Shown here in pieces: positions 56,539 to 59,071 of a stretch of DNA of 64,000 bases (positions are counted from its first letter, which is position 1; every line of letters starts with the position of its first letter). The DNA is from Pseudomonas kermanshahensis (GTDB taxonomy: Bacteria > Pseudomonadota > Gammaproteobacteria > Pseudomonadales > Pseudomonadaceae). The DNA lies in the NCBI RefSeq assembly GCF_014269205.2, contig NZ_JABWRY020000001.1, positions 2,170,001 through 2,234,000 on the forward strand, in the 5' to 3' direction. The position numbers and the translations under genes are program-made. Below the pieces are notes generated by a model. The model saw nothing but the letters and a program-made list of their open reading frames with translations. It made no database searches and was not told where the DNA came from.

Positions 56539-56692
56539 GGGAATGTCCTCTTGGTGGCGGTTACAGCTGTGACCACTGTGCAGAGGTGGTTGCTGCATCG
56601 ATCCGCTGGGCGGGATGTATCGCACTTGCTGGCGCTGCGCGAGTCAACTCTCACAGAGGCAGCCCCAGCGCATTTTGATCAGGAGCGTCACG

Positions 56693-57223
56693 ATGAACCC
56701 TTGGTGGCATCCGATTTGGCAAACCATTCAGGCCGAGTTCGCCGACCTCGGCGACGAGCGCGAAGTCACGCGGGTGCTGGTGCGCCTGCTGATGGCGGCC
56801 GTGCTGGGTGCGGTGCTGGGTTTCGAGCGTGAGCACAAAGGCAAGTCTGCCGGCGTGCGCACCCACATGCTGGTCTCACTGGGCGCTGCGCTGTTCGTGT
56901 TGGCGCCAAGCATGGCCGGGGCCGACGAGCAGGCGCTAAGCCGGGTGATCCAGGGCATTGTCGCCGGGATCGGTTTTCTGGGGGCGGGTACCATTCTCAA
57001 GGGTAACGGCCAGGACGCCAGCCATGTGAAAGGGCTGACTACCGCAGCAGGGCTGTGGATGACTGCCGCGATCGGTACGGCCGCCGGCATGGGGCGCGAA
57101 GCCACGGCATTGATCAGCACGGTGCTGGCACTGTTGGTGCTGGGCACGATGCCTATGTTGGTGGACAAGGTCGAGAAACAGGATGAGGAGAAACAGAGCG
57201 AGGAGGAGGGCAGGAAGCACTGA
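56693..57223 (+). CDS. MgtC/SapB family membrane protein
   Basis: A 176-residue inner-membrane protein of the MgtC/SapB family. 'LLMAAVLGAVLGFEREHKGKSAG' (in two parts), 'GVRTHMLVSLGAALFVL', 'VIQGIVAGIGFLGAGTIL' and 'GLTTAAGLWMTAAIGTAAGMG' are family hallmarks; the C-terminus is a charged Glu/Lys tail without the ACT-like domain of full-length MgtC. Linked to Mg2+ homeostasis or ATP synthase control in relatives. ATG at 56693 has AGGAG 7 nt upstream. crcY lies just downstream, on the opposite strand. Confidence 0.9.
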   Translation: MNPWWHPIWQTIQAEFADLGDEREVTRVLVRLLMAAVLGAVLGFEREHKGKSAGVRTHMLVSLGAALFVLAPSMAGADEQALSRVIQGIVAGIGFLGAGTILKGNGQDASHVKGLTTAAGLWMTAAIGTAAGMGREATALISTVLALLVLGTMPMLVDKVEKQDEEKQSEEEGRKH

Positions 57224-57571
57224 GGGGAGCCGAAGCTCCCCCCAAAGCGTTGTTGCCTGCTCTTTTTATTATTGAAGACGGCCTTTTGTTGTTTTTGTCA
57301 GCCAGTCTTTGTGTCGCGGGCGACCCCCATGCGGGGTCAAGAACAAACGTATTTTTTTGAGCGCTGACCTGCTTTCATCCTGACTGATCCGATGCTGACT
57401 GCCGCTACCTTGAGGTAGTTTTATTGTTCTGTGTCAGACCGCGGGGCGTACCCCTGAAAAGCGTGTCTACTCCAAAAAAATCTGCTTGCTACGCCTCTGC
57501 CGTGTTGTTCTTGTTATGTCAGAGCCGTTACCTGTTGTTTTTATTGGGTGTCACATTTTTATTGTTCTTGT
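57221..57571 (-). ncRNA. crcY: CrcY-like small RNA (Hfq/Crc-sequestering)
   Basis: An untranslated minus-strand RNA of about 350 nt in the 529-nt mgtC-mvaB gap. Read on the minus strand it is studded with A-rich AANAANAA-type motifs, such as ACAAGAACAA, AAAAACAA, AACAAGAACAA, AACAATAA, ACAAAAACAACAAAA and AATAATAAAAA (plus-strand TTNTTNTT at 57505-57515, 57535-57542, 57562-57569, 57421-57428, 57284-57298, 57264-57273). Such RNAs titrate Hfq/Crc and relieve catabolite repression. A sigma-54 promoter lies 11 nt upstream, which fits CbrB control. In P. putida, crcY lies between an HMG-CoA lyase and an MgtC gene, as here. Ends are estimated from promoter and hairpin. ORFs in the gap are spurious. 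Confidence 0.82.
57224..57241 (-). terminator. Hairpin at the crcY/mgtC 3' ends
   Basis: GGGGAGC-CGAA-GCTCCCC on the plus strand; on the minus strand it reads as a 7-bp stem capped by a stable UUCG tetraloop, the usual intrinsic-terminator form. The following T-tract is weak. It serves crcY and may also end mgtC transcripts. Confidence 0.6.
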
Positions 57572-57581
57572 ACCAAAGATA

Positions 57582-57599
57582 TAGCATGGCCCGTGCCAA
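57582..57599 (-). promoter_or_regulatory. Sigma-54 promoter of crcY
   Basis: On the minus strand TTGGCACGGGCCATGCTA matches the -24/-12 consensus (TGGCACG-N4-TTGC), with the GG and GC doublets exactly 10 nt apart. Transcription would start about 12 nt downstream at ~57571, where the A-rich motif ACAAGAACAA begins. Confidence 0.85.
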
Positions 57600-57680
57600 C
57601 TTTTTCAAATCCTTTAAAATCAAGCACTTAGGTGTTTTGGTGGAAAACGCTCGACCTGAAATTTTGTCGATTTGTTTCCC

Positions 57681-57721
57681 TGTTACCCGATTTTTTGCTG
57701 CGAAACGTGGGGGAGGTAACA
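57681..57721. promoter_or_regulatory. Inverted repeat upstream of crcY, candidate CbrB activator site
   Basis: TGTTAC (57681-57686) and GTAACA (57716-57721) form a 6-nt inverted repeat with a 29-nt spacer, about 110-150 nt upstream of the predicted crcY start, the distance expected for an enhancer-binding activator such as CbrB. Function is inferred from position and from the GTAACA-type motifs associated with CbrB. Confidence 0.5.
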
Positions 57722-57752: not shown

Positions 57753-58652
57753 CTAGTGCGCGCTGCGTGCGCGCGCCACTCGCGACCCATTGGCGCGGCC
57801 CAGCACCGTGCTGATGCGTTGCCCTGCGGCGATCAGGCGGTCCAGGTCGATGCCCGTCTCGATGCCCAGCCCCTGTAGCAGGTACACCACGTCTTCGGTT
57901 GCGATATTGCCGGTGGCGCCCTTGGCATAGGGGCAGCCACCCAGCCCGGCCACCGAGCTGTCGAACACATTGATACCTTCAAGCAGGCTGGCATAGACGT
58001 TGGCCAAGGCCTGGCCATAGGTGTCGTGGAAGTGCCCGGCCAACTGCTGGCGCGGCACCTGGGCCGACACCACGTCGAACAGCCGGCGGGTATCGCCTGC
58101 AGTGCCGGTACCGATGGTGTCGCCCAGCGATACCTCGTAGCAGCCCATGTCATGCAGGGCGCGGGCGACCGGGGCGACCTGTTCGGCGCTGACCTTGCCT
58201 TCATAAGGGCAGCCCAAGACGCACGACACATAGCCACGCACGCGCACGCCGTGGCTGCGCGCAGCCTCCATGATCGGCTCGAAGCGCTTGAGGCTGTCGC
58301 TGATCGAGCAGTTGATGTTGCGCTGCGAGAACGCCTCGGACGCTGCGGCAAACACCGCCACCTCTTTCACCCCGGCAGCCAGCGCATCTTCGAAGCCGCG
58401 CAGGTTCGGCGCCAAGGCGGCATAGGTAACACCGGGGCGCTGCACGATGCCTGCGAACACCTCTGCGGAACCAGCCATCTGCGGTACCCACTTGGGCGAG
58501 ACAAAGCTGCCGACTTCGATGTAGGCAAGGCCTGCTTCGGTAAGGTCGTCAACCAGGCGCACCTTGTCGGCGACGCTGATGGGCTGAGCTTCGTTCTGCA
58601 GACCGTCGCGGGGGCCTACTTCGACCAGACGGACTTCTTTAGGCAAGGGCAT
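57753..58652 (-). CDS. mvaB: Hydroxymethylglutaryl-CoA lyase
   Basis: A 299-residue TIM-barrel lyase that splits HMG-CoA into acetyl-CoA and acetoacetate, ending leucine and isoprenoid-unit catabolism. Motifs: 'VEVGPRDGLQNE' (residues ~10-21, catalytic Arg, Asp and Glu), 'GHFHDTYGQALANVYAS' (metal-binding His) and 'GLGGCPYAKGATGN' (catalytic Cys loop). ATG at 58652 has AGGAAA 8 nt upstream. It lies 20 nt after a MerR gene on the same strand and is followed by crcY; the liu genes that usually accompany it are not in the window. Confidence 0.95.
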   Translation of the reverse strand: MPLPKEVRLVEVGPRDGLQNEAQPISVADKVRLVDDLTEAGLAYIEVGSFVSPKWVPQMAGSAEVFAGIVQRPGVTYAALAPNLRGFEDALAAGVKEVAVFAAASEAFSQRNINCSISDSLKRFEPIMEAARSHGVRVRGYVSCVLGCPYEGKVSAEQVAPVARALHDMGCYEVSLGDTIGTGTAGDTRRLFDVVSAQVPRQQLAGHFHDTYGQALANVYASLLEGINVFDSSVAGLGGCPYAKGATGNIATEDVVYLLQGLGIETGIDLDRLIAAGQRISTVLGRANGSRVARARSAH

Positions 58653-58672
58653 GGCGGGTTTCCTGTGGCGGG

Positions 58673-59071
58673 TCAACGGTTGTCTTTATTGTTCAAGGTC
58701 GCGGCAAGGGCCTGCTCGCAGCGCTCCTGGGCGGTGTCGAGCTCCAGTTGCATCTGGTGGATGTCGAGCATCTGCTGCTCCAACTGGGCACGTCGTTCGG
58801 CGATTTTCACCAGCATGCTGTTGAGCTGTTTCAGGTTGCCGCTGGTGGGGTCATACAGCTCGATCAGTTCACGGCATTCGGCGAGGGAAAAACCAATGCG
58901 CTTGCCGCGCAGGATGAGCTTCAGGCTGACTTTGTCACGCGCCGAGTAGATGCGTTCCAGGCCACGTCGCTCGGGGCTCAGCAAGCCCTGTTCCTCGTAG
59001 AAGCGGATGGCACGGGTGGTGATGTCCAGCTCGCGGGACAGGTCGGAGATGCTGTAGGTCTGCAGGCTCAT
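58673..59071 (-). CDS. MerR-family regulator (LiuR-like)
   Basis: A 132-residue MerR protein: helix-turn-helix ('YSISDLSRELDITTRAIRFYEEQ', in two pieces), 'LLSPERRGLERIYSARD' wing and a long dimerisation helix (~80-125). Effector-domain length and the absence of metal-binding Cys match LiuR-type regulators of branched-chain amino-acid and acyclic-terpene catabolism. It is cotranscribed with mvaB, which supports that role. Confidence 0.88.
   Translation of the reverse strand: MSLQTYSISDLSRELDITTRAIRFYEEQGLLSPERRGLERIYSARDKVSLKLILRGKRIGFSLAECRELIELYDPTSGNLKQLNSMLVKIAERRAQLEQQMLDIHQMQLELDTAQERCEQALAATLNNKDNR

Follow-up and report, generated by a model that had tools for sequence, protein, structure and literature searches.

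A predicted CrcY small RNA downstream of mvaB in Pseudomonas kermanshahensis and a conserved half-site block in its promoter

In Pseudomonas, CrcY serves as a central switch of carbon catabolite repression, and it escapes protein-only annotation. In P. putida, a transcript is named PP3539-mvaB-crcY (PMC6292655), and Barroso et al. 2018 define the CbrB subsites F1, R1 and R2 (PMC6296734). The crcY gene has an extra perfect subsite, R′ (GTAACA), which is centred at -112, "from the start codon" as worded (PMC6296734). Substitution of F1 caused the largest drop in P. putida crcY expression and abolished CbrB binding (PMC6296734). Expression was unaffected by substitution of R1 or R′, and the effect of R2 substitution was milder than that of F1 (PMC6296734). 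CbrB binding was slightly lower upon substitution of R1 and did not change significantly upon substitution of R′ or R2 (PMC6296734).

The window, the whole 64-kb stretch of DNA that was analysed, contains a single match to RF01675 (CrcZ) at or above the gathering score. In the Rfam covariance search, positions 57571..57189 of the minus strand align to the complete model (1-398 of 398) with 324.8 bits, compared with a gathering score of 95, and an E value of 2.6e-90. The match lies directly 3′ of mvaB, which is identified by PF00682 and NF004283. The locus is composed of the following genes.

57189..57571, minus strand: CrcY small RNA (RF01675); 5′ end predicted at 57571, 3′ end approximate
57753..58676, minus strand: mvaB (hydroxymethylglutaryl-CoA lyase), the upstream neighbour; PF00682; NF004283 at 495.8 bits with a cut-off of 246
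58673..59071, minus strand: MerR-family regulator in the PP3539 position; PF13411 over cut-off
56615..57223, plus strand: MgtC-family gene, convergent and downstream; PF02308 over cut-off

The segment very probably encodes CrcY, a small RNA of the CrcZ/Y/X family, with a probability of about 0.97. Given the published order PP3539-mvaB-crcY, the RNA downstream of mvaB corresponds to crcY. The RF01675 match, the location after mvaB as in P. putida and the genus-wide presence of the family mark it as an already known small RNA gene of P. putida-type bacteria, ordinary save for a puzzling, strictly conserved promoter half-site. CrcY of P. putida KT2440, compared by its published description, shares the post-mvaB place, the RNA family and the extra perfect GTAACA at about -112, and no difference was found. 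The MerR-family gene is probably the PP3539 orthologue, as judged from its position. Neither the MerR-family gene nor the MgtC-family gene reaches the cut-off of an NCBIfam model.

The evidence for crcY is drawn from sequence and comprises the family, the locus, promoter parts, motif excess, conservation, the crcZ paralogue and partner genes. An earlier, sequence-only reading of this DNA had proposed an intact crcY-type regulator locus and suggested a covariance search with CrcY/CrcZ models. The search returned the full-length RF01675 match, which supports the proposal together with the post-mvaB position and the conserved promoter sites, CA motifs and hairpin. The extent given to the RNA agrees with the predicted start, 57571, but fell short at the 3′ boundary, 57221, as the Rfam alignment continues to about 57189.

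The RNA of 383 nt begins with ACAAGAACAA at 57571, the predicted start, where the sequence-only reading had placed it. It carries six separate clusters of the CA (AANAANAA) motif and a 3′ hairpin.

57556..57569, minus strand: CA motif cluster 1
57535..57545, minus strand: CA motif cluster 2
57505..57515, minus strand: CA motif cluster 3; occupies the loop of a hairpin that is predicted and nearly invariant
57421..57428, minus strand: CA motif cluster 4
57286..57296, minus strand: CA motif cluster 5; occupies the loop of a predicted short hairpin, one pair of which covaries strongly
57263..57273, minus strand: CA motif cluster 6
57224..57241, minus strand: 3′ hairpin GGGGAGC-UUCG-GCUCCCC; stem core nearly invariant and foot pairs covarying in 21 sequences

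The previous count of at least six CA-type motifs is borne out. Dinucleotide-preserving shuffles contain 0.72 clusters on average and at most four, and none of 2000 reaches six. Away from the locus, 383-nt stretches taken at 10-nt steps along both strands contain at most one cluster.

A consensus fold was computed with RNAalifold from 21 crcY sequences, namely the window and 20 mvaB-linked loci. It contains 67 pairs; for 17 of them, two-sided change preserves the pairing in at least one sequence, a count made without a shuffled control. Several stems, such as a long-range helix between A-rich and U-rich strands, hardly vary and are uninformative either way. The CA motifs are largely unpaired in the predicted fold. 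A nearly invariant stretch at 57338..57367 of the minus strand, TCAGCGCTCAAAAAAATACGTTTG(C/T)TCTTG, is not a CA motif; in the predicted fold, part of it pairs with a U-rich stretch, likewise nearly invariant, that lies about 110 nt towards the 5′ end.

The UUCG-capped terminal hairpin that had been described is present at 57241..57224. The window sequence shows no clear or strong U-run after this hairpin, and the stop codon of the MgtC-family gene (57221..57223) sits at its foot. The 3′ end of crcY is thus only approximate. Because of the location of the stop codon, the 3′ ends of the crcY and MgtC-family transcripts may overlap.

The source genome has one other RF01675 match, of 343.5 bits, between cbrB and pcnB; judged by these neighbours, it is crcZ. 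The cbrB protein upstream of crcZ (394 aa) reaches no NCBIfam cut-off among the matches listed (25 of 33), so it is named by its position and its homology to sigma-54 activators. Also present in this genome are rpoN, hfq and ihfA, all above curated cut-offs. The Crc protein adjoins pyrE and matches the solved chain 4jg3 (catabolite repression control protein) with 533.7 bits; its top match is 2myi, named exodeoxyribonuclease III, with 565.2 bits.

Each of the 199 genomes sampled across the genus, the source genome included, has the RF01675 family above cut-off. By hand count, 22 genomes have one match, 153 have two, 22 have three and two have four; these are lower bounds, as the genus search used stricter filters, and a match is not always a whole gene, since two of the four in genome G082 are adjacent pieces. 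Among the best 80 of 592 mvaB protein matches, 20 loci have crcY just downstream of mvaB, and all 20 are titled Pseudomonas. With a two-sequence DNA profile, crcY was unseen in the fetched flanks of the other 60 of these 80 loci, and distant copies could be missed by such a search. Thirteen of the 60 are titled Pseudomonas, Halopseudomonas or Stutzerimonas. Among the named loci of the best 80 of 592, Pseudomonas hunanensis has the closest mvaB, with 96% identity. In other Pseudomonas species, mvaB-linked copies widely retain the sigma-54, IHF and CbrB-type sites, the CA motifs and the terminal hairpin.

The predicted crcY promoter contains a sigma-54 element, an IHF site and upstream CbrB-type subsites, all of which are present.

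57583..57599, minus strand: sigma-54 (RpoN) -24/-12 element TTGGCACGGGCCATGCT; one mismatch to the pattern used
57618..57630, plus strand: IHF-type site AATCAAGCACTTA, between the activator sites and the promoter
57673..57678, minus strand: subsite R2, GAAACA; GAAACA in 19 and GGAACA in 2 of 21 aligned promoters
57681..57686, minus strand: extra subsite R′, GTAACA; centre at -112.5 relative to 57571; identical in 21 of 21
57693..57698, minus strand: candidate weak subsite R1, GCAAAA; assigned from published spacing
57716..57721, minus strand: CbrB subsite F1, TGTTAC; centre at -147.5; aligned in 20 of 21

Promoters were surveyed for 50 crcY loci, which consist of 30 loci (source genome included) and 20 further loci. 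The 30 are mostly top-scoring RF01675 matches, not a random draw, and at least one genome is represented twice among the crcY promoters (L016, L043). The six crcX-like promoters belong to third copies; of the 24 genomes with at least three matches, 8 were inspected and 6 of these supplied one. As the sequences are related, the promoter counts are not independent events.

The bare sigma-54 consensus has 10 matches in the window with at most two mismatches, versus 14.8 expected, and is no rarer than chance. It was therefore rejected as stand-alone evidence. The support for TTGGCACGGGCCATGCT is its position and conservation: TGGCAC-N6-TGC occurs at -27 in all 21 aligned crcY promoters, and 48/50 crcY, 6/6 crcX-like and 17/17 crcZ promoters carry the strict sigma-54 pattern. 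The sigma-54 promoter (GG-N10-GC) that the sequence alone had indicated is located at 57599..57583 of the minus strand and is conserved in position. The IHF-type site exactly matches the IHF consensus WATCAANNNNTTR. Two matches to WATCAANNNNTTR occur in the window versus 0.33 expected, and at least two are present in 3 of 100 shuffles. A strict match is located at -59 in 18 of the 21 aligned crcY promoters. Across the survey, the strict IHF pattern is present in 37/50 crcY, 2/6 crcX-like and 1/17 crcZ promoters, and absent from 13/50 crcY and 16/17 crcZ promoters examined.

An inverted repeat, TGTTAC-N29-GTAACA, had been proposed as an activator site. It is present at 57721..57681 and is the sole TGTTAC-N(9-32)-GTAACA in the window; none of 100 shuffles has one. 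It is not a simple activator dyad: F1 matters most and R′ substitution is without effect, and the reading as a plain CbrB palindrome was rejected because the two halves behave differently (PMC6296734). By the published definitions and the unequal substitution effects, the repeat consists of F1 and R′. In addition, R′ and R2 form an 8-bp direct repeat, GGGTAACA-GGGAAACA. Which exact hexamers are called R1 and R2 was judged from spacing, and these assignments are probable. The 21 aligned promoters show no conservation at the position expected for R1 from the published 20-25 bp spacing.

A block of the form GTAACA-NN-G(A/G)AACA, which spans R′ and R2, is present in 50/50 crcY, 5/6 crcX-like and 0/17 crcZ promoters. 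F1 precedes this R′R2 block by 28-30 bp in 47 of the 50 crcY promoters. All 17 crcZ promoters contain TGTTAC-N13-15-GTAACA followed by GTAACG. CrcZ shares the RNA family and the sigma-54 promoter (17/17) with crcY but differs in its locus (cbrB/pcnB), its CbrB-site spacing and the lack of the R′R2 block. The third copies (L130-L135), for which CrcX is a likely name, share the RNA family and, in five of six, the crcY-type block; they differ from crcY in their neighbours, and the source genome has none. The split in the presence of the block argues for two promoter layouts, one of crcY and crcX and one of crcZ. The split was not found in the available portion of PMC6296734.

The fresh point is that the half-site R′ occurs in 50/50 crcY promoters examined, yet is reported as dispensable (PMC6296734). 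It is possible, if somewhat doubtful, that crcY and crcX promoters form their own class of CbrB site, made up of F1 and a composite tandem half-site GTAACA-NN-GAAACA, in which R2 partly backs up R′ and the R1 place of the crcZ layout is unselected. Such backing up would let substitution of R′ alone look harmless and keep the R2 effect mild. The reported dispensability of R′ may reflect compensation by R2, which lies 8 bp away. Against this stand the mild but real effect of R2 on expression and the slight effect of R1 on binding (PMC6296734). Alternatively, the invariant block could be bound by a second, unrecognised regulator.

Two other explanations of the locus were weighed against an intact crcY. 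The genome holds two RF01675 copies, so that loss of one might be tolerated, and some of these RNAs are called genetically redundant in a review (PMC8871633). The locus could accordingly be a decayed or silent copy, its function supplied entirely by crcZ. This is very improbable, as the RF01675 match is full-length, six CA clusters are retained, and F1, R′, R2, the IHF site and the sigma-54 site are all present in the promoter.

An overlapping reading frame, of 69 aa on the minus strand or 105 aa on the plus strand, could instead be a real protein gene, with the RNA features incidental. Each frame is uninterrupted in the window. In 15 of the other 20 rows of the alignment, the 105-aa frame also stays open, antisense to the RNA, for at least its first 50 codons, which the conservation of the RNA itself explains. 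A Pfam search matched neither ORF. The 69-aa ORF lacks ATG, GTG or TTG at its start position in all 20 other rows. The 105-aa frame meets a stop before residue 76 in 18/20 rows, while L061 stops at 107 and L033 is without a stop, and the length of the region is not divisible by three in 17/20 rows. A protein gene is therefore hardly credible. Both ORFs look spurious, in agreement with the sequence-only reading, since neither is conserved as a reading frame across the 20 other rows.

In the proposed mechanism for crcY, scarcity of good carbon would lead CbrB to bind half-sites about 105-148 bp upstream of the crcY start. IHF would bend the DNA between these half-sites and the promoter, and RNA polymerase with sigma-54 would start an untranslated RNA at about 57571. 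The CA motifs of CrcY would then bind Hfq with Crc. With Hfq/Crc drawn off target mRNAs, catabolite repression would be relieved and less favoured foods would become usable. By analogy with studies in P. putida and Azotobacter, crcY probably depends on CbrB, IHF and RpoN, CrcY probably sequesters Hfq/Crc, and additional CrcY is probably processed from mvaB read-through.

Several further copies were observed in the genus. On contig 16 of genome G082, two adjacent pieces (L136 and L138, 87.4 + 51.3 bits) make up a weaker RF01675 match that is split, possibly a diverged or truncated copy. Another copy there (L128, 261.9 bits) lies in an unassigned neighbourhood. Genome G151 contains two extra crcY-like genes (L121 and L137), 95% and 92% identical to its mvaB-linked copy, with fetched flanks that lack mvaB, mgtC, cbrB and pcnB. 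Both have the crcY-type activator block, and only one has the strict sigma-54 pattern. They may be an assembly or contamination artefact, as the G151 assembly is in about 210 contigs. In the source genome, the crcZ promoter contains an extra GTAACA (L001:1325-1330), located upstream of F1, about 174 bp 5′ of the RNA start.
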